Both the position numbers and the translations under genes were made by a program. DNA of 44,488 nt from a virus. Below, piece by piece: positions 5,990 through 33,197 of the stretch. The notes below the pieces were generated by a model. It was not told the DNA's origin. It saw nothing but the letters and a program-made list of their open reading frames with translations, and made no database searches. The stretch is taken from the IMG/VR virus record IMGVR_UViG_3300032297_000176, positions 1 to 44,488 of that record; one strand, given 5' to 3'. Each line of letters begins with the position of its first letter. The first letter of the stretch is position 1.

Positions 5990-8179
5990 CTATCCTAGTT
6001 GTTCTTCAGTCATCCCTGACTGCTCTGGCGCTTCACCAGCCGATGCTGGATCCTCCGCCGGGGCTCCGAGTTGTTGTTCTGGACCCGTCATTCCCATTTG
6101 CGCAATCTGCATCTGACGCTGCATTAATGCAACCTCGTGAGCTTGAATGTGCTTCTGGAACTCTGCTTTAATTTCCTCAGGCAGCAAGTCGAAAGACTGG
6201 CTCTTGCGGAATCTGTTGTGAACCTCGATGTGAACTGCGTGGTTGTCGTAGTCGTGTGCACCAACAACAGCAGGAGGATCCATTGGAATTGGTGTACCGG
6301 TCTCTTCTGCTGAGCCAGGAATAAACTTGTCCTGATCTCCGCGTTCGATACCAGCTTGCCATTCGGAGTAGTACTGCTCGATTTCTTCTGGAGTAAGCTT
6401 CTTCATCATCAGGTTTTCACGCTGAGCTTGGTTCTCGTCGATCTTGATCAAGTTGTAGTACTGCTTCAGCATACCCATTTCTAGTACGCGCAAGCCATCT
6501 TGTGGAGAGATGAAGCCCATCTTCATCCATTCGGTGATTAATGCTTGGCGAGCAGACTTTGATGTAGGTAATGCTGATCCGGATTCAATTCGAATATCCG
6601 TACCAGATGCGATGTCCGCACCAGACAACATTAGCGCGTCAAATGATCCATCTGTACCGACAGTCTTGATCAAGCGATCAGTCTGTACGTACTGGACAAA
6701 TAGGCTAAGGGCCTGCCTTGCTAGTTTCTCTAGTGCAGCTTCAATGCTATTAAAAATAGTCGTTAGGTAAGCATCGTCTCTTTCGCCAAGGTAGGCAATA
6801 GCAGTAGCTGCAGTTACACCTGGAGCCGAGTCACCACGGCTGATCTGGTGCTGACCAGAAATGTCTTCAAAATCAGTCTGTAGCTGTTGGATTTCTTGAA
6901 TCACGTAGCTAGGGATTGGTTGAATTGGAATAGGAGTTGGGAACTGGAATCCTGGACGAACAGGAACCCATAGACCAGCTTTGGCTGTAATACGCTTAGG
7001 GTCTACTGAACCCTCGGCGTACATCATCTGAGGCTTTGACATCAGGTTCTTAGCGTGAATGATTTGAGAACGGGTTCTGTTGTATTCGCGCTGTAGCGGA
7101 ATTAGGTTCTTTACTACGGAGCGACGGTAGAACTTACCGTTCTGAATGCCGTGCAAGTGCGCAATTGGGTACTGGCCGTGAGCGTAAGGAATGCCTTCTT
7201 CTGAGTACTGAACGATCTCGTTGTCTACGATTGTAACTAGTCCACCCTTTGGTAGCCATGGGCAACCGTTTGGCTTTGCCCACATCTCGATAACCAAAAC
7301 CATGTCAGGGCGAGCGCTGTCAACTCCACGAAGATCCATAAGAGCTGCCTCTTGGATGTCGGTTGAGTTTACCTTTGTAGGGGTGAAGTCCTTAGGAAGA
7401 ACGTTCTTAAATGTTGACTTTACCCACAGCTCAGACTTTGTGTATACGTTGAAAATGAACGGCTGCTCTTCTATGTCTTCTTGAGCTAGGTCCGGAACAA
7501 AAACGTGGAACGGAGAAACTGCTTCAAACTTTACGTCACCAGTTGCTGTGACTTCTTGAGTAACTTTCTTTTCTCCAGTTAGCTGATCAACATCGGTTCT
7601 TGGAGTTTTGATTTGAACGGAAGAGTCCCACATTGCCTTAATAAAACCATTGCCTGTGATAGCTCTCCAGAACTCAGCTTTCTGAAGAATCTGAGTTTGA
7701 AAGTTGTTTTTGTCGTAAACAGACTGCCACACCTGCTCAGCTGCAGTTGCTGCTAGAAGATCATCGTCATCGTTAGAGGCTGGTACTACTGAAGCAGATG
7801 GCTGACCAGAAGTTGTCTTTGCAACCTCAGTACGGATAACAGGCTCAATGCGGTTAACAGTAATGCGAGGAAGACCTGATGGGTTTGGTTCTTCAGACAA
7901 TCCCTGACGGCCGTTGATCGTTGCCCATGAGTGGTACTGCTGACCGTTGTAAAAAGCTAGCTGAAGGTACCAATCGTTTTCTTCGGTTCTACGGTTTAGT
8001 CGACACTTGTCGTACTCAGCCTTCATCCAAGCAACAAGCTTTTTAGCTTCTTCTCTTTTTTTAAACTTGTTTAAAACGCTATCTTCTACGAGCTCAGAGT
8101 CTTTTACCGTAGGCACTTTCTCAACTACGGTAAGGTCAGGTCCCGCCTGGGCGATCTCGTCTAGTGGGTTAACTGCCAC
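5990..8179 (-). CDS. Portal protein, podovirus type
   Basis: 729 residues, the length of P22/SAR-type podovirus portals rather than the 450-550 of siphoviruses. Residues 45-115 contain the N-terminal wing pattern with Y-N-G-Q-Q-Y-x-S-W and G-L-P-R-I-T-V-N-R-I-E-P, a motif common in these portals. The central part holds the stem helices around residues 390-460 and the C-terminal 120 residues are a Gln/Met-rich helical barrel extension. It starts two bases downstream of the previous gene and is followed by the scaffold gene. It forms the dodecameric ring through which DNA is packed and released. Confidence 0.9.
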   Translation of the reverse strand: MAVNPLDEIAQAGPDLTVVEKVPTVKDSELVEDSVLNKFKKREEAKKLVAWMKAEYDKCRLNRRTEENDWYLQLAFYNGQQYHSWATINGRQGLSEEPNPSGLPRITVNRIEPVIRTEVAKTTSGQPSASVVPASNDDDDLLAATAAEQVWQSVYDKNNFQTQILQKAEFWRAITGNGFIKAMWDSSVQIKTPRTDVDQLTGEKKVTQEVTATGDVKFEAVSPFHVFVPDLAQEDIEEQPFIFNVYTKSELWVKSTFKNVLPKDFTPTKVNSTDIQEAALMDLRGVDSARPDMVLVIEMWAKPNGCPWLPKGGLVTIVDNEIVQYSEEGIPYAHGQYPIAHLHGIQNGKFYRRSVVKNLIPLQREYNRTRSQIIHAKNLMSKPQMMYAEGSVDPKRITAKAGLWVPVRPGFQFPTPIPIQPIPSYVIQEIQQLQTDFEDISGQHQISRGDSAPGVTAATAIAYLGERDDAYLTTIFNSIEAALEKLARQALSLFVQYVQTDRLIKTVGTDGSFDALMLSGADIASGTDIRIESGSALPTSKSARQALITEWMKMGFISPQDGLRVLEMGMLKQYYNLIKIDENQAQRENLMMKKLTPEEIEQYYSEWQAGIERGDQDKFIPGSAEETGTPIPMDPPAVVGAHDYDNHAVHIEVHNRFRKSQSFDLLPEEIKAEFQKHIQAHEVALMQRQMQIAQMGMTGPEQQLGAPAEDPASAGEAPEQSGMTEEQLG

Positions 8180-25153: not shown

Positions 25154-25441
25154 TTATTTCCATAACGCTCTACGTTGGGTGGCTGTCATAGCTCCCCAGA
25201 TCCCTGACACTTCTTTGTGCTTTATGGCATAGTCGCCACACTTTTTCATTACAGGGCAGGACTGGCAAGCTTTGACTGCCATCTTGAGGTGACTGCCATC
25301 AAAGCCTGATCCGGTGCCGATCTTCTCTGGGAAGAATAGATCCGGGGCTTGTCGGCAGGGTATCTGTCCAGCTTCGGACTCGATCGCATTGTTCAGCGAT
25401 AGCCAGTCTCTTAGCTGTTGGTGATCACTAAAGGCTTCCAT
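25154..25441 (-). CDS. WhiB-family iron-sulfur transcription regulator
   Basis: 95 residues. Four Cys ligands: one in I-P-C-R-Q (near residue 29) and three in C-Q-S-C-P-V-M-K-K-C (near 60-69), the C-x2-C-x5-C spacing of WhiB. The G-I-W-G-A-M-T turn (near 81) and the basic Q-R-R tail complete the family pattern. WhiB proteins occur almost only in actinobacteria and their phages, where they bind the housekeeping sigma factor and shift transcription; phage copies can act against host WhiB. It is coupled to the Cys-rich gene upstream (TAATG) and to the helicase downstream. This is the best single host marker in the window. Confidence 0.93.
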   Translation of the reverse strand: MEAFSDHQQLRDWLSLNNAIESEAGQIPCRQAPDLFFPEKIGTGSGFDGSHLKMAVKACQSCPVMKKCGDYAIKHKEVSGIWGAMTATQRRALWK

Positions 25442-28653: not shown

Positions 28654-28692
28654 ATAAAAAAAGGCCCTACCAGATCTCTCCGGTAGGGCCTT
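28654..28692 (-). terminator. Rho-independent terminator after the YubB-like gene
   Basis: A perfect 11-bp stem (AAGGCCCTACC at 28661-28671 with 28682-28692, 10-base loop) is followed on the minus strand by seven T residues. It ends the accessory transcript nine bases after the YubB-like gene and shields the replication operon start. Confidence 0.9.
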
Positions 28693-28700
28693 ACGTATTG

Positions 28701-29279
28701 CTATAACGGGAATGCATCAAACAGATCTAATTCCTCTGTGCTGTCCCATAAGATCTCGTCGTCTACGGTGATCGCTCCGGCTCGTTGCCAGTGCTCGATT
28801 GTTAGATCTTGCTGTTTGTTTGTTACGTTTACTTGATCGATGAATGACTCTCCGATGAATCCGATGCCATCCTCGTAATACTGGTGCTTGATCTCAAAGT
28901 CCAAGAATCTTGGCACTGATCTGACTACGTTGATCCAGAAGGCTTCGTTAGGTGCCCATGGAGTTTCGTACTCGAGGATCAGTAACTCATCATTCATGCG
29001 ATCAAGCGATCCTCCTTCGTAGACACCCTTGGTGCCATAGTTGGCTAGACGCCAGTTATATTCGGTGGTGTAGGCACGCTCAGTGTTTCCACTCAGTGCA
29101 TCTGCAAACTCAGCGTGAGATTCCTCACGTGAGTCATAAGGCAGGCCCTTGGGGGGTGGGAGGATGGCCTCAAAGGCTCCTCCTATGTCACCCCCCTTGT
29201 CTGCAACCTGTTTCTCGAATGCATCAAGCGATGCCTTCGATGCTGTTATGTGTACTCGGTTATAACAGATGTTAGCCAT
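28701..29279 (-). CDS. YubB/DUF1281-like ferredoxin-fold protein
   Basis: 192 residues from ATG 29279, chosen because GGAGAG lies seven bases upstream inside the end of the previous gene. The N-terminus MANICYNRVHITAS, the I-L-P-P-P segment (near 43), the N-W-R-L-A-N-Y-G-T-K-G-V-Y motif (near 75) and the T-P-W-A-P-N-E strand (near 106) are the landmarks of the YubB family, found on plasmids and phages often near antirestriction genes. The biochemical role is not known. It is the last gene of a four-gene unit starting with the ArdA-like gene and is followed by a strong terminator. Confidence 0.8.
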   Translation of the reverse strand: MANICYNRVHITASKASLDAFEKQVADKGGDIGGAFEAILPPPKGLPYDSREESHAEFADALSGNTERAYTTEYNWRLANYGTKGVYEGGSLDRMNDELLILEYETPWAPNEAFWINVVRSVPRFLDFEIKHQYYEDGIGFIGESFIDQVNVTNKQQDLTIEHWQRAGAITVDDEILWDSTEELDLFDAFPL

Positions 29280-29679
29280 AGACGATCTCTCCAAACAGTC
29301 CAACTTGGATGATCACGTCGAGAGCTTCGCCATCGATGTAGCCTCCTGCAAGGCCTTGACCAATATCGCTAAGGATGTACCCAACAATACTTGGGTTTAC
29401 CTCGACGTTACCGGCCACGATCTTTTGGATGCCTTCGATAATCGTGTTTACGCTGATCAGGTGCTCGAGCTCTGTCTCCTCATCAAGGATGTTCAGCTTG
29501 TAGATTCGACGAGGCTTCTCATCGGTGTAGCTAACCTCCTTGTATGTGCCAACCCAGTACCCAATAGCTTGCGGTGCTGAGTCGATCAGATCGATGATCG
29601 CTGAGATGCTGACCTTCGGTGCTATGTGCAGACCGATCTCATCGGTCGGCAGTAGTGTTCTGGTTGATATTGCTTGCAC
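29272..29679 (-). CDS. Conserved actinophage-type hypothetical, 135 aa
   Basis: GTG start with GAAGGAG upstream. Features I-G-Y-W-V-G-T near residue 39 and a C-terminal G-G-Y-I-D-G-E-A-L-D-V-I-I-Q-V-G-L-F-G-E-I-V-Y-G. That ending resembles small proteins I recall from actinophages and conjugative plasmids, whose function is unknown. Overlaps the YubB-like gene by 8 bases and follows the 98-residue gene by two bases. Probably part of a counter-defence or host-takeover set by context only. Confidence 0.75.
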   Translation of the reverse strand: MQAISTRTLLPTDEIGLHIAPKVSISAIIDLIDSAPQAIGYWVGTYKEVSYTDEKPRRIYKLNILDEETELEHLISVNTIIEGIQKIVAGNVEVNPSIVGYILSDIGQGLAGGYIDGEALDVIIQVGLFGEIVYG

Positions 29680-29681
29680 GG

Positions 29682-29978
29682 TTATTCTCCTTCTTCTTCG
29701 TTATCCCAGTCATTCACCCAAGGCTCCAAGTGGTGCCCTTCGATGATTGACCAAGCTGGTGCTCGGTTGGTGTTTCTCCATGATACGCCTTCTGGCAACT
29801 CGATCATGGTGTTGCTGTTGCCTTCCCAATAAGCGTCGATCGCTTCGATGCATGGCTTCACCATGCTCAAAGGGACCGGCGGATAGTGGTTTCCAGTCAG
29901 GTGCATTTGAATCTGTGCCTCTAGCGTCAAGTCGGGAAAGACTCCATTAGCTAGCTCTGTTGCGAAATTGCTTCCCAT
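29682..29978 (-). CDS. Conserved actinophage-type hypothetical, 98 aa
   Basis: Contains H-Y-P-P-V-P-L-S-M-V-K-P-C-I-E-A-I-D-A-Y (about residues 31-50), then I-E-L-P-E-G-V-S-W-R and A-P-A-W-S-I-I-E-G-H-H-L. I recall this pattern from actinophage small proteins of unknown role. An AAAGGAGCACCACC leader precedes the ATG, nearly the same as that of the ArdA-like gene, which hints that the two leaders share an origin. Confidence 0.75.
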   Translation of the reverse strand: MGSNFATELANGVFPDLTLEAQIQMHLTGNHYPPVPLSMVKPCIEAIDAYWEGNSNTMIELPEGVSWRNTNRAPAWSIIEGHHLEPWVNDWDNEEEGE

Positions 29979-30066: not shown

Positions 30067-30405
30067 CTAGATACTAGTCCAGAAGTAATGCGTTCTTTTT
30101 ATGGTGTGGCCAGCTGTGCCAATAGGTAGCTGTAGCTCAACGGTGTAAATCTCACCATTGAGATCGAGGTCCCTGCCAAACATTGCGTAATCAAACGTAA
30201 TGTATGGGGCCAAGCTCTGGTCAATTTGATTCTCAAGGCTAAACAGGTAGTCGTTATCCTCAAGGACATGCTGAGCCAGCTCCTCAAGGCTATAGAACTC
30301 ACCGATATACGCCTCGTCAAAGCGTTCACGGCTCTGGTCGCCTTCTTCGTCTATCTCATCTCGCCATGCTTCGTACACGGCATCTAGGGTCGTTTTCGTG
30401 GTCAT
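30067..30405 (-). CDS. ArdA-like antirestriction protein
   Basis: 112 residues from ATG 30405 with AAAGGAG eight bases upstream; longer upstream frames are not supported. Acidic, as DNA mimics are. The core F-D-E-A-Y-I-G-E-F-Y-S-L-E-E-L-A (about residues 29-44), Y-I-T-F-D-Y-A-M-F-G-R-D-L near 72-84 and a final Y-F-W match the C-terminal ArdA domain, which mimics B-form DNA and blocks type I restriction enzymes. It is shorter than full ArdA (about 165 aa), so it corresponds to domains 2-3. It has its own cassette upstream and probably acts early after injection. Confidence 0.75.
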   Translation of the reverse strand: MTTKTTLDAVYEAWRDEIDEEGDQSRERFDEAYIGEFYSLEELAQHVLEDNDYLFSLENQIDQSLAPYITFDYAMFGRDLDLNGEIYTVELQLPIGTAGHTIKRTHYFWTSI

Positions 30406-30526
30406 TGTGGTGCTCCTTTTCTGTGCTAGCCAAACGGCCTCACACGTGTTGATATTTTTATGTGGGCATGACATGCAGTGTCTACTATGCAAGTCATGAA
30501 TAGATGCTATCACTGCCAAACATGCA

Positions 30527-30602
30527 GATGAAAATCCATTGCAGGCTCTGTACGCCCTGTAGGCGGGGCATCATCGGCATCATCATCAATCCATCCGTCC
30601 CC
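30527..30602 (-). promoter_or_regulatory. Leader cassette A, upstream of the ArdA-like gene
   Basis: The 298-base gap 30406-30703 contains this cassette and a terminator. On the minus strand box 1 GGGGACGGATGGA (ending at 30602) is followed by TTGATGATGATGCCGATGATG, a spacer, and box 2 GCAATGGATTTTCAT (30527-30542). The same boxes occur in cassettes B and C, and in changed form in D. Box order is fixed but spacing varies, so they are not a simple -35/-10 pair. Downstream, TTGGCA and GCATAGTAG could be promoter boxes. Confidence 0.6.
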
Positions 30603-30645
30603 GTTTTGATAGGGCTCGTAGAGCCATTCTGTGCCTTCTCAGGGC

Positions 30646-30690
30646 ATAAAAAAACCCTGCAGGCACTGGGGGGATCAGTGCCTGCAGGGT
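30646..30690 (-). terminator. Terminator A (after the 139-residue gene)
   Basis: A perfect 15-bp stem (30654-30668 with 30676-30690) with loop GGGGGAT on the plus strand and seven T residues after it on the minus strand. Stem ends ACCCTGC/GCAGGGT and the T-run plus ATGCCC are shared with terminators B and C. Confidence 0.92.
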
Positions 30691-30703
30691 AACTAGGAGC
30701 AAC

Positions 30704-31123
30704 CTAGCTTGTTACTGGGATTTCCTTGTCTGCAAGGCAGTCCCAAATCGCTTGCTGGTCGTGGTAGCTAGCCACGGCTAAGGCCTCCTTGAGGTCCTCG
30801 ATGTGCCTTGTACGGTCGTAAAAGCGTGTACCGGCTGAGTCGGTCCAGATGCCTAGGTAATCGCCTTCAGCTTCGCTGAGTGACTGCACAGGCTCAATAC
30901 CAACCCAATAGCCTGACTGGCGTGGTGCAAGGTATGGTATGCCGTCTATGACGCTGTAGGTGCCATCAGCCAACTGCTCAAGTGGTGACGCGTACGGGTC
31001 TCGTACGGCCTCCCAGTGGCCATCTGGGTTCTGCTCGTGGAAGAAAATACCTAGCTTGACTGCATCAGCCACGTTATCAGCGGTGACGTAGTAGGTTGCT
31101 TCGTATTTGACTATGTATTGCAT
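30704..31123 (-). CDS. Conserved actinophage-type hypothetical, 139 aa
   Basis: A central Y-L-G-I-W-T-D-S-A-G-T-R-F-Y-D (about residues 89-103) followed by H-I-E-D-L-K-E-A-L and Q-Q-A-I-W-D resembles small actinophage and actinobacterial proteins of unknown function I recall. The N-terminal part is a beta-rich V-K-Y-E-A-T-Y-Y-V-T-A-D segment. It is a single-gene unit: cassette B and a leader hairpin before it, terminator A after it. ACGGAGC ribosome site. Confidence 0.78.
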   Translation of the reverse strand: MQYIVKYEATYYVTADNVADAVKLGIFFHEQNPDGHWEAVRDPYASPLEQLADGTYSVIDGIPYLAPRQSGYWVGIEPVQSLSEAEGDYLGIWTDSAGTRFYDRTRHIEDLKEALAVASYHDQQAIWDCLADKEIPVTS

Positions 31124-31140
31124 GGTTTGCTCCGTTTCGT

Positions 31141-31162
31141 TTGAGTAGCCAGGTGGCTACAA
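31141..31162 (-). promoter_or_regulatory. Leader palindrome B
   Basis: TTGTAGCCACCTGGCTACTCAA on the minus strand holds a 7-bp palindrome (GTAGCCA/TGGCTAC) just before the ribosome site of the 139-residue gene. A copy with one base changed precedes the next gene upstream (31753-31774). It could be a 5' stabiliser or an operator. Confidence 0.65.
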
Positions 31163-31190
31163 GGTCAATACTACTATGCCGGCACATCAT

Positions 31191-31249
31191 CATGAAAATC
31201 CATTGCACGCATCATCATCATCGGCATCATCATCATTCCATTCGTCCCC
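31191..31249 (-). promoter_or_regulatory. Leader cassette B, upstream of the 139-residue gene
   Basis: Box 1 GGGGACGAATGGA, then ATGATGATGATGCCGATGATGATGATG, then box 2 GCAATGGATTTTCATG (31191-31206) on the minus strand. It is followed by CATAGTAGTATTG, whose TAGTAT could be a -10. The ATG/GAT microsatellite is longest in this copy. It lies between terminator B and the gene it serves. Confidence 0.6.
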
Positions 31250-31285
31250 GTTATAAATGGGTTTAGCCTTTAGAAAAATCTGGGC

Positions 31286-31330
31286 ATAAAAAAAACCCTG
31301 CCAGCGAGGGGGGGGGCTCGCTGGCAGGGT
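31286..31330 (-). terminator. Terminator B (after the 132-residue gene)
   Basis: A perfect 14-bp stem (31295-31308 with 31317-31330) with a loop of eight G on the plus strand, then eight T residues on the minus strand. Shares ACCCTGC/GCAGGGT stem ends and trailing ATGCCC with terminators A and C. Confidence 0.92.
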
Positions 31331-31336
31331 GGCTTT

Positions 31337-31735
31337 TTATACTAGATACTGAGCTAGGTTCTTGAGCAAGGACTGATTGACTGTCTGCTCCTCGGATAGC
31401 TTCAGTATTGCTAGGGATTGAGATAGGTTCTTCACATCTGACTCAATACTCCAACTAGGGTGAACTATGTTGGGGTTCTTAGGGTCAAACGGCTTCTCCT
31501 TGGGTAGTTTAGCCAAGTAAGCGTCTGACACTCTGAACTCAAATGTATTGCCGTAGCGGTGGCTAGAAACCTCAATAATGTGCTTTACAGCTCCATCTCT
31601 CCATTTCTTGAGCTCAAGCTCATACTGGTCTTTTATCTCTCTTTTCCTAGCTAACTGCTTTTCTAGGTCTGCCTTGACTGACTCTAGCTTGTTGATTAGT
31701 GCGGTGCGGTTTACCTTGATACTGGCTGTTGCCAT
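31337..31735 (-). CDS. Coiled-coil hypothetical protein, 132 aa
   Basis: Function not recognised. Residues 8-50 are a long basic helix with heptads (L-I-N-K-L-E-S-V-K-A-D-L-E-K-Q-L), then a short beta part (H-R-Y-G-N-T-F-E-F-R-V-S-D-A-Y-L) and a C-terminal helix. It is a single-gene unit with cassette C before it and terminator B after it. AAGGAGC ribosome site. Location among antirestriction and host-takeover genes is its only functional hint. Confidence 0.75.
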   Translation of the reverse strand: MATASIKVNRTALINKLESVKADLEKQLARKREIKDQYELELKKWRDGAVKHIIEVSSHRYGNTFEFRVSDAYLAKLPKEKPFDPKNPNIVHPSWSIESDVKNLSQSLAILKLSEEQTVNQSLLKNLAQYLV

Positions 31736-31752
31736 AATGATTGCTCCTTTGG

Positions 31753-31774
31753 TTGAGTAGCCAAGTGGCTACAA
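31753..31774 (-). promoter_or_regulatory. Leader palindrome C
   Basis: TTGTAGCCACTTGGCTACTCAA on the minus strand: the same element as 31141-31162 with one base changed in the hairpin loop. It precedes the ribosome site of the 132-residue gene. Loop-only change is what one expects of a kept hairpin. Confidence 0.65.
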
Positions 31775-31802
31775 GAACAATAATACTAGACAGGCAGGGC
31801 TC

Positions 31803-31851
31803 GCTATAAATCCATTGCTGGCATCATCACATCATCTTTCCATTCGTCCCC
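31803..31851 (-). promoter_or_regulatory. Leader cassette C, upstream of the 132-residue gene
   Basis: Box 1 GGGGACGAATGGA, then AAGATGATGTGATGATGCC, then box 2 GCAATGGATTTATAGC on the minus strand. Box 2 here carries TATAGC, a fair -10, and TAGTAT follows 16 bases after TTTATA. The GAT repeat is short in this copy. Confidence 0.6.
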
Positions 31852-31869
31852 TGGTTCTGAGCCGGGCAT

Positions 31870-31908
31870 AAAAAAACCCTGCAAGCCCGGGGGATGGGCT
31901 TGCAGGGT
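31870..31908 (-). terminator. Terminator C (after the two tiny zinc-ribbon genes)
   Basis: A perfect 13-bp stem (31876-31888 with 31896-31908) with loop GGGGGAT, the same loop as terminator A, and seven T residues after it on the minus strand, then ATGCCC. Confidence 0.9.
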
Positions 31909-31916
31909 TAGTCTCT

Positions 31917-32042
31917 TTATTCCTCCTCTTCAACCTCCGGGCATTTATGGAAGTCTGCGATCGCTGGCAGGAATCTTGCTTTACAGTCTAGGCATTCATA
32001 CATCCAACCCATGCGAGTTGGGACTAGGCCTAGGGTCATCAT
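31917..32042 (-). CDS. Tiny Cys-containing protein, 41 aa
   Basis: Starts at ATG 32042, overlapping the TGA of the gene upstream (ATGA), with a GAGG site nearby. Contains Y-E-C-L-D-C-K-A (residues 15-22) and a later H-K-C (32-34), enough for one zinc site, and ends in a run of Glu. Translational coupling and the Cys pattern support it; function not recognised. A strong terminator follows nine bases after its stop. Confidence 0.62.
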   Translation of the reverse strand: MMTLGLVPTRMGWMYECLDCKARFLPAIADFHKCPEVEEEE

Positions 32043-32170
32043 TCGTCAACCTCGCAGTCATGGCCGAAGTAATATTCCCCGGCGTCCTCTTCGTTGAGTA
32101 GGTTGAATACACGGTCACACTCATTGCATGTGGCCTTAGTACCTATGATGGGTCCTGTTGTTATGTGCAT
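32039..32170 (-). CDS. Tiny zinc-finger-like protein, 43 aa
   Basis: ATG 32170 with AAAGGAGC seven bases upstream. Contains A-T-C-N-E-C-D-R-V-F (residues 13-22) and F-G-H-D-C (35-39), a compact C-x2-C ... H-x-C zinc finger. It is the first gene behind the sigma70-like promoter of cassette D and divergent from the HTH regulator. Its end overlaps the next tiny gene by four bases. Confidence 0.65.
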   Translation of the reverse strand: MHITTGPIIGTKATCNECDRVFNLLNEEDAGEYYFGHDCEVDE

Positions 32171-32228
32171 GTCAAGCTCCTTTCGTTTTGTTTACTTGAC
32201 ACGTATAGCTTACTACGCCGGGATGGCT

Positions 32229-32275
32229 AGCTATAAATTCATGCAATCGATGTTGTCAAGGTTCCATTCGTCCCC
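32229..32275 (-). promoter_or_regulatory. Cassette D with sigma70-like promoter
   Basis: On the minus strand TTGACA (32254-32259) and TATAGC (32230-32235) are 18 bases apart, a good sigma70 promoter for the two tiny zinc genes. Upstream of it box 1 GGGGACGAATGGA (32263-32275) matches cassettes A-C, and the TTTATAGC part equals box 2 of cassette C. The GAT repeat is absent here. No terminator precedes it, because the region upstream is the divergent promoter. Confidence 0.7.
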
Positions 32276-32304: not shown

Positions 32305-32333
32305 TTAAAATATGATAAGCTGTCTACTATACA
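32305..32333 (+). promoter_or_regulatory. Promoter of the plus-strand regulator operon
   Basis: TTAAAA (32305-32310), 17 bases, TATACA (32328-32333), then an AAGGAG ribosome site 13 bases before ATG 32353. It diverges from the cassette D promoter, with 29 bases between the two -35 sides, so one regulator could control both. Confidence 0.6.
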
Positions 32334-32352: not shown

Positions 32353-32862
32353 ATGGCAAGGATCATTGATCACCCTGTTCGCTTAGCAAGATTGCAGCTG
32401 GGACTCTCTCAGAAGGAACTAGCTAGCCGAGCAGGCGTTAATCGTGCAGCGATCACAGCGATCGAAGATGGCAGAACTAAAAAGCCTGCAGAGAAGATCG
32501 TAGCCGTGCTAGCTAATGGCACAGGCACGTCAATAGCGGATCTATACGAACAGATCGACATTTACATAAACAGGCCACTAGCCGTGGATGCAAAGCCGTC
32601 TGTACAGAATCTGATGCTGATCCCACCGTACACACTTAACCAGTACTACAAGTCCTTCAAGCAGTGGAGACTAGAACTAGCTAAGACCCCGACAGCACTT
32701 GCATCTACATTGCACATAAATCCTGCAGTAATTTCTCGCTATGAGGATGGTCTACTACAAGGGTTCCCGGAACTTCTGTCTCGTAAGTTGGTAGAGGCTT
32801 ACGCCCCTTATGGGATGACTCCGGAATATGTAGTTGAGCTAGAGAAGTTGCCAGCAGCATGA
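32353..32862 (+). CDS. Double helix-turn-helix (XRE-type) transcription regulator
   Basis: 169 residues from ATG 32353 (AAGGAG upstream; the longer frame lacks a site). Residues 6-65 form a canonical XRE/HTH_3 domain (L-G-L-S-Q-K-E-L-A-S-R-A-G-V-N-R-A-A-I then I-E-D-G-R). A second HTH of the same type seems to lie at about 105-150 (A-L-A-S-T-L-H-I-N-P-A-V-I-S-R-Y-E-D-G). It is placed at the divergent promoter with the accessory cassettes, as a Cro/CI-like switch would be. It overlaps the metallopeptidase gene by four bases. With no integrase, it is more likely an early/late switch than a prophage repressor. Confidence 0.85.
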   Translation: MARIIDHPVRLARLQLGLSQKELASRAGVNRAAITAIEDGRTKKPAEKIVAVLANGTGTSIADLYEQIDIYINRPLAVDAKPSVQNLMLIPPYTLNQYYKSFKQWRLELAKTPTALASTLHINPAVISRYEDGLLQGFPELLSRKLVEAYAPYGMTPEYVVELEKLPAA

Positions 32863-33197
32863 TCCCGAAGACAATAAGAATTGGTACGCAAGTATTCAAA
32901 GTTGTATCGCGCGATCCTGCAAGCGATGGAATGCTGCATGAAGCTGTTGGCTATTCGCTAGACGATGAGAACCTGATCGTATTGTCGAATAGACTAAATG
33001 AGACTAAGAGGAAGCAGACACTCCTGCATGAGATCCTTCATTGCTTGAAGTTTGTCTTCTATGCTGGTCATCATCCGGTTAATAAGGATCTGGACACCTG
33101 GGAGCATTTCTTTATTAACCTGTACGAAGAGCCATTACTTATGGTGCTGCAAGACAACCCACAACTAGTTAAATACCTATTAGGAGATAAAAAATGA
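32859..33197 (+). CDS. HExxH zinc metallopeptidase-like protein (ImmA/IrrE-like context)
   Basis: 112 residues. L-L-H-E-I-L-H-C-L (about residues 51-59) is an HExxH zinc-protease motif; a third ligand may be the E of W-E-H-F near residue 81. The gene overlaps the HTH regulator by ATGA. Regulator-protease pairs of this type (ImmR/ImmA) use the protease to cut the repressor, so a switch role is attractive. The protein is short and its N-terminus differs from ImmA, so a SprT-like or stand-alone protease is possible. Confidence 0.72.
   Translation: MIPKTIRIGTQVFKVVSRDPASDGMLHEAVGYSLDDENLIVLSNRLNETKRKQTLLHEILHCLKFVFYAGHHPVNKDLDTWEHFFINLYEEPLLMVLQDNPQLVKYLLGDKK

Follow-up and report, generated by a model that had tools for sequence, protein, structure and literature searches.

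A conserved upstream box heads exchangeable accessory-gene units in a group of uncultured phages

The closest described counterparts of the locus reported here are repeated control sequences and accessory loci of other viruses. The repressors of cluster A mycobacteriophages bind asymmetric stoperator sites with two domains (PMC9283540). In cluster K mycobacteriophages, the SAS element (GGGATAGGAGCCC) lies 3-7 bp from start codons (PMC3203893). Repeated intergenic elements have been described in Gordonia phage CaiB (PMC9302106) and in halovirus HF2 (PMC8707807), and moron or accessory loci with their own promoter are also known in phages (PMC7067206). We compare with these systems a region in which a single short sequence stands upstream of several small accessory units.

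The window, by which we mean the whole stretch of DNA analyzed (44,488 nucleotides), is a 44.5 kb virus record (IMGVR_UViG_3300032297_000176) that carries terminase, portal, capsid and primase-helicase genes and a WhiB gene:

25154-25441, minus strand: WhiB-family protein (PF02467, E=1.1e-14)

A search with the two-box pattern described below recovered three further contigs. Further relatives were found by searches with the XRE protein of the region and the downstream HTH_17 protein, the HTH_17 orthologs serving as the bait for most of them. The comparison set comprises the window and 15 related IMG/VR loci, each covering the region wholly or partly; none of the 15 is a cultured phage. The closest cultured terminase, at 46% identity, belongs to Arthrobacter Jasminevirus (phages Casserole and Jasmine). 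Searches of cultured phages gave no match to the whole-cassette DNA, none to the HTH_17 protein and only short helix-turn-helix matches to XRE. The WhiB gene, together with distant relatives of the gene B product in Microbacterium and Curtobacterium phages, points to actinobacterial hosts, perhaps Microbacteriaceae. No integrase-sized unexplained ORF appeared in the window among the listed ORFs of at least 100 aa and the family scans. A tRNA search found none, Rfam reported nothing in the window and five relatives, and PADLOC returned generic HTH matches only.

The sequence GGGGACGRATGGA (box 1) occurs exactly four times in the window, always on the minus strand, and in none of 100 dinucleotide shuffles of it. 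Each copy stands at the start of one of four predicted leftward transcription units located at 30.5-32.3 kb, as the initial annotation of this DNA had proposed. We refer to the non-coding sequences containing them as cassettes A to D:

30590-30602, minus strand: box 1 of cassette A, exact GGGGACGRATGGA
31237-31249, minus strand: box 1 of cassette B, exact GGGGACGRATGGA
31839-31851, minus strand: box 1 of cassette C, exact GGGGACGRATGGA
32263-32275, minus strand: box 1 of cassette D, exact GGGGACGRATGGA

That proposal depended on the boxes recurring in relatives, and they do. With a weight matrix applied to the window and the 15 loci, the accessory region holds all 44 strong matches (44/44), each on its transcribed strand, and none was found outside it in 541,358 strand-bases; since the matrix was trained on the box types of these loci, the counts demonstrate confinement and not independent discovery. 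Three forms of box 1 match three clades of the XRE regulator: GGRACGRATGGA in clade I, where XRE is 85-95% identical to that of the window, GCAACGANTGGA in clade II (67-69%) and GGAATGARTGGAATG in clade III (61-63%). The box is retained where the adjoining XRE is only ~61% identical. Position 5 is C at 24 of 24 sites in clades I and II and T at 24 of 24 in clade III, position 2 is C at all six sites of clade II, and one locus (L015) has G at position 7 in all four of its copies. In clade I, box 1 shows an identity of 0.94 between paralogs of the same genome versus 0.91 between orthologs of the same slot; the corresponding values for the -10 region, which is slot-specific, are 0.51 between paralogs and 0.92 between orthologs. 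Given that box-1 letters change in concert and -10 regions do not, the probable reader of all copies is a single trans-acting protein. About 13 bp are retained across the clades, one per unit and in a fixed place relative to the promoters. The wide conservation and the position upstream of the promoter suggest that box 1 is probably a protein-binding site.

Relative to the predicted transcription start, box-1 centers lie at about -44/-47, -56, -67/-72, -80/-82, -89/-90, -98 and -103. This spacing, taken from related sequences, is weakly periodic, with the best period at 11.4 bp (p about 0.005). Strict helical phasing was considered and set aside, the p value at 10.5 bp being about 0.05. At least 92 nt separate the start of box 1 from the ribosome-binding site in the window.

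Box 2 (GCAATGGATTT) is exact at 30532, 31196 and 31808, against 0.07 copies expected. It had been reported for all four cassettes, which is correct for A, B and C, but cassette D has only the degenerate form GCATGAATTT. The distance between the two boxes, rightly given as 18-47 nt, varies between cassettes, unlike that between box 2 and the next element downstream: in 18/18 clade I cassettes the GGATTT hexamer of box 2, or a variant of it, is followed after exactly 22 nt by TANNNT, which reads TAGCAT or TAGAAT in A, TAGTAT in B, TATTAT in C and TAAGCT in D. The independent count is about four, because the 18 cassettes are four slots in several genomes; the spacer sequences differ. The predicted promoter cores of the window are:

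30504-30542, minus strand: cassette A, box 2 GCAATGGATTT-N22-TAGCAT
31168-31206, minus strand: cassette B, box 2 GCAATGGATTT-N22-TAGTAT
31780-31818, minus strand: cassette C, box 2 GCAATGGATTT-N22-TATTAT
32207-32240, minus strand: cassette D, GAATTT-N22-TAAGCT

The fixed 22-nt distance to a -10-like hexamer identifies box 2 as the -35 part of a predicted promoter and not as an independent signal. It is restricted to clade I, the closest clade, and is missing elsewhere; box 1 and box 2 are thus not the two equal modules they had been taken for. Outside clade I there are two arrangements: box 1 immediately precedes the core promoter, or the promoter has a -35 resembling TTGACA or TTGACC, which in those relatives suggests ordinary host promoters. 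The housekeeping actinobacterial -10 element, TANNNT, is found in all 18 cassettes of the window clade, the predicted -10 boxes being short motifs. The corresponding -35 element, near TTGACA at 16-18 nt, is not found there, the -35 boxes of the window being poor. Promoters of a single-subunit RNA polymerase were rejected, no polymerase being recognized among the larger ORFs. When box 2 is compared with the variation of box 1, its first nine bases fit well (rank fraction 0.0002) and the full 13-mer less well (0.014 for one window form and 0.0014 for the other), so that box 2 may also be a degenerate second box-1 site.

Cassettes A, B and C are preceded by terminators with stems of 14-15 bp starting with ACCCTGC, then T7-8 and ATGCCC. 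These had been described correctly, except that the loop GGGGGAT is that of the plus strand and the transcript reads ATCCCCC:

30654-30690, minus strand: terminator before cassette A, stem-loop with covariation
31295-31330, minus strand: terminator before cassette B, stem-loop with covariation
31875-31909, minus strand: terminator before cassette C, stem-loop with covariation
28661-28692, minus strand: terminator closing unit A, predicted stem

A covariance test of the stems, which the initial annotation had suggested, was made on 15 aligned terminators from the window and its relatives. All 195 cells are paired (195/195, 100%), and two-sided changes are seen in 8 of 13 pairs; there are 32 such cells versus 8.0 in shuffles, and no shuffle reached the covariation score. 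This compensation indicates that the terminator stems are under selection as RNA. The covarying terminators and the promoter-like core in each cassette agree with the proposal of separate transcription units. The complete cassette exists in A-C; cassette D has neither microsatellite nor exact box 2, no terminator precedes it, and it faces the divergent XRE gene. The microsatellite itself was correctly placed: the window holds six ATGATGATG runs versus 0.3 expected. These trinucleotide runs follow box 1 and vary in length. A role as start codons or leader peptide was rejected, since phase is not kept.

Two cassettes have a short leader stem-loop:

31757-31772, minus strand: leader stem-loop GTAGCCACTTGGCTAC of cassette C, at the predicted mRNA 5' end
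31145-31160, minus strand: leader stem-loop GTAGCCACCTGGCTAC of cassette B, seen in the sequence

A universal 5' leader hairpin was rejected, one being seen in only 27 of 48 units versus 21% of shuffles. In the leader of unit D (window about 32203-32171, minus strand), TGTCAAG can pair with CTTGACA and enclose the ribosome-binding site, and the pairs co-change in relatives (AAG/CTT, AAA/TTT); translation control by this pairing is possible.

The region contains further elements with potential structure. A 44-nt tRNA-like mini-element, unreported by ARAGORN and Rfam, combines a T-arm of the GGTTCRAGYCCC type with a 5-bp acceptor-like helix stacked on it and lacks an anticodon arm. It is located at about 30060-30016 of the window (minus strand), and in the relatives at about 1085-1130 of L012, 13025-13070 of L002, 2865-2910 and 4803-4846 of L013, and 6370-6415 and 8364-8407 of L015. 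Compensatory changes occur in 5 of its 11 pairs; the element may be what is left of an attachment site, or a signal for RNA processing. In L013, L015 and L002 the mini-element begins a conserved structured RNA of ~120 nt (for example L002 13020-13150) between the unit D genes and terminator C, a place where the window has none. This RNA has further compensated helices (6/35 pairs, in three sequences only). The sequence TAGTAGACA is found at 32321-32329 of the window, in the XRE-divergent region, and at 30479-30487 (minus strand), in the unit A leader. Similar copies occupy the same places in relatives; their number alone is not unusual. An inverted repeat, its arms co-changing in relatives, encloses the loop that holds the unit A copy.

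The XRE gene runs divergently from unit D:

32353-32862, plus strand: XRE regulator, 169 aa; HTH_3 (PF01381), E=1.7e-14, above cut-off
32305-32333, plus strand: XRE promoter TTAAAA-N17-TATACA, predicted from the sequence

Orthologs 60-95% identical are present in every relative with the region covered. A second HTH region is probable from a match to 2mez (E=0.0033). The AF2 model of XRE is of medium confidence (mean pLDDT 71.8), its second domain is modeled poorly, and the fold matches mainly cover the N-terminal helix-turn-helix. Clade III proteins carry two differences in the recognition helix, N30Q and A32S, which represent a single change in the tree; we take these positions to align with base-contacting residues of the 434 repressor. 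XRE is the best candidate for the reader of box 1: its gene adjoins the first box and accompanies the region in every locus that covers it, and the protein has an HTH and a probable second one, with an altered recognition helix in clade III. The link consists of co-occurrence and one correlated change in the tree. Directly after XRE, some of the relatives and the window (32859-33197, plus strand) encode a peptidase M78/IrrE-like protein with weak matches, an arrangement that recalls repressor-protease pairs.

We propose that each cassette is a complete promoter module, insulated from the preceding unit by a terminator, that box 1 would bind one phage-encoded protein, and that box 2 and the TANNNT hexamer 22 nt later would form a core promoter for the host RNA polymerase, often with a short stem-loop before the ribosome-binding site. 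Three to five such units would make up one accessory-gene regulon. The reader of box 1 would most likely be the divergently transcribed XRE, and it probably acts as an activator; we infer this step from box 1 being placed ahead of the core promoter in every case, with weakly periodic spacing. Against activation counts that this spacing is more variable than for many activators. Taken as a whole, this explanation has in our judgment about an even chance of being correct. A more doubtful, tentative proposal is that a regulator with two DNA-binding domains activates insulated units of one to four genes via one shared upstream site, regulator and site changing together.

The same protein and site could act in the opposite sense: bound to box 1 as a repressor operator or stoperator-like roadblock, XRE would silence the units or stop readthrough. 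An asymmetric 13-bp site in a single orientation to transcription would suit such a role, as would the adjacent phage HTH regulator, which probably has a second DNA-binding domain, and the M78-like peptidase gene after XRE, as in some repressor-protease pairs. However, box 1 is upstream of the promoter, neither over nor downstream of it, the terminators already stop readthrough, and the sites are restricted to one region. The window contains no integrase-sized unexplained ORF, and none of the 50 PDB matches listed for XRE has the stoperator-domain fold. We consider repression by XRE unlikely.

Box 1 might instead be read by another trans factor, such as the phage WhiB, the HTH_17 protein, a host regulator or an alternative sigma factor. 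The phage does encode WhiB (25154-25441), HTH_17 orthologs are present in most relatives (for which they were the bait), and concerted change of box 1 is compatible with any trans factor. The position of box 1 between XRE and the XRE-divergent unit, and its change with the XRE clades, speak for XRE. The clade III cassette pattern had no match among 84,980 prokaryote species, each represented by one genome, so that a host regulon with exactly this sequence was not seen; a genome scan for XRE found none either. A reader other than XRE also seems improbable.

It is very unlikely that the boxes work at the RNA level, serving a readthrough transcript as signals of the leader, antitermination or processing type. 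They do lie directly after terminators and box 1 is followed by trinucleotide runs of variable length, but the rigid spacing is that from box 2 to the -10-like hexamer, a property of promoters, box 1 precedes the best predicted starts, cassette D has box 1 without a preceding terminator, and Rfam finds nothing.

The genes behind the cassettes, which the insulated-promoter explanation would place under common control, are as follows:

31917-32170, minus strand: unit D, two small proteins of 43 aa (32039-32170) and 41 aa (31917-32042)
31337-31735, minus strand: gene C, 132 aa, no assigned function, 37-94% identical in relatives
30704-31123, minus strand: gene B, 139 aa, no assigned function, 36-51% identical in relatives
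30067-30405, minus strand: ArdA-like gene, 112 aa (PF07275, E=5.2e-10, C-terminal part only)
28701-29978, minus strand: rest of unit A, three more genes

One gene or gene pair per cassette, as first described, fits units B to D; cassette A heads about four genes, from the ArdA-like gene to 28701. The suggested antirestriction cargo comes down to one C-terminal ArdA-like match, which covers positions 82-150 of the 155 in the profile and not the full domain.

That the genes are interchangeable is borne out by the relatives, in which some families are missing, have given way to others or stand in a different slot. The ArdA-like gene is the first of unit A in the window, L012, L013 and L015. In L011 this gene is absent and the cassette is directly followed by the next gene; family F04 comes first in L017, L018, L019, L020, L021 and L028, and an unrelated gene in L022. 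Families F08 and F15 are in the first unit in some genomes and in the third in others, and family F00 also changes slot. Both unit D proteins have homologs in relatives, the second gene being replaced in L013. Between close relatives whose XRE is still 85-95% identical, identity drops to 50% for gene B and 37% for gene C. Gene calls for the slot comparison were simple, and small genes may be missed or misplaced. From these comparisons, the relatives appear to keep the control sequence while the genes behind it are swapped or change rapidly, an arrangement resembling a plug-in system in which one regulator would control the accessory genes.

The cassettes had been regarded as repeatedly duplicated. 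As they occupy orthologous slots, only the B-C pair shows duplication directly, with 82% identity across a 49-nt stretch of promoter and leader. At about 1255-1300 of L011, a degenerate extra cassette (GGTGGATGATGATGATGCGCAGATTT) just before cassette A suggests cassette duplication or decay. Least probable of all, and given hardly any weight here, is that the boxes are linkers, conserved because units recombine with one another, and have no regulatory function themselves: the slot changes of F08, F15 and F00, the common promoter and leader of B and C and the help that conserved junctions would give to swapping agree with it, but linkers need neither ~13 bp kept at a constant location with respect to promoters and once per unit, nor letters changing in concert across a clade.

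The region marks where a group of uncultured actinobacterial phages keeps exchangeable genes, and the combination of terminator, box 1 and promoter core provides a searchable signature for new accessory genes in metagenomic phages. If box 1 is an activator site with one phage-encoded reader, the locus shows how genes can be added without disturbing existing operons. A gene landing behind a box would join the regulon at once, allowing fast exchange of accessory genes, for example for counter-defence. The three natural variants of box and regulator make specificity directly testable.

The system overlaps in part with each of its counterparts. Cluster A stoperators (L5, TipsytheTRex; PMC9283540) are likewise asymmetric 13-bp sites in one orientation to transcription (44/44 here), and their immunity repressor is a phage HTH regulator that also binds DNA through a second region, as XRE probably does. 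Box-1 sites differ in sequence, are few and lie upstream of promoters; there is no sign of lysogeny, and the stoperator domain is unmatched among the 50 PDB matches listed for the XRE model, whose second domain is poorly predicted. The genome-wide dispersal that defines stoperators is absent, the strong sites being all in one accessory region. The SAS/ESAS elements of cluster K (PMC3203893) share with box 1 a repeated 13-bp asymmetric sequence that stands before a subset of small non-structural genes and is conserved among relatives; box 1 has another sequence and lies far upstream of the promoter, without the proximity to start codons that defines SAS. Repeats also head several units in CaiB, where they are proposed to be regulatory (PMC9302106), and in HF2, where they were shown to be promoters (PMC8707807); the available parts of these two reports describe no coupled covarying terminators, separate upstream operator box or concerted regulator change. 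Moron loci (PMC7067206) are accessory genes that differ among relatives and are transcribed independently; the present units share the first feature and probably the second, each unit here having its own terminator with covarying stem and T-run and, to judge from its sequence, a promoter-like core at fixed spacing. Here, several units are under one common control box, and a prophage state is not known. Jasminevirus has a similar genome size (45-47 kb), a WhiB gene and the closest cultured terminase; it has no XRE ortholog, and Casserole has no strong box 1 (best score 12.5). Repeated promoters and operators are thus already known in phages, and what is unusual in this locus is the combination of insulated units, one common upstream site and concerted change.
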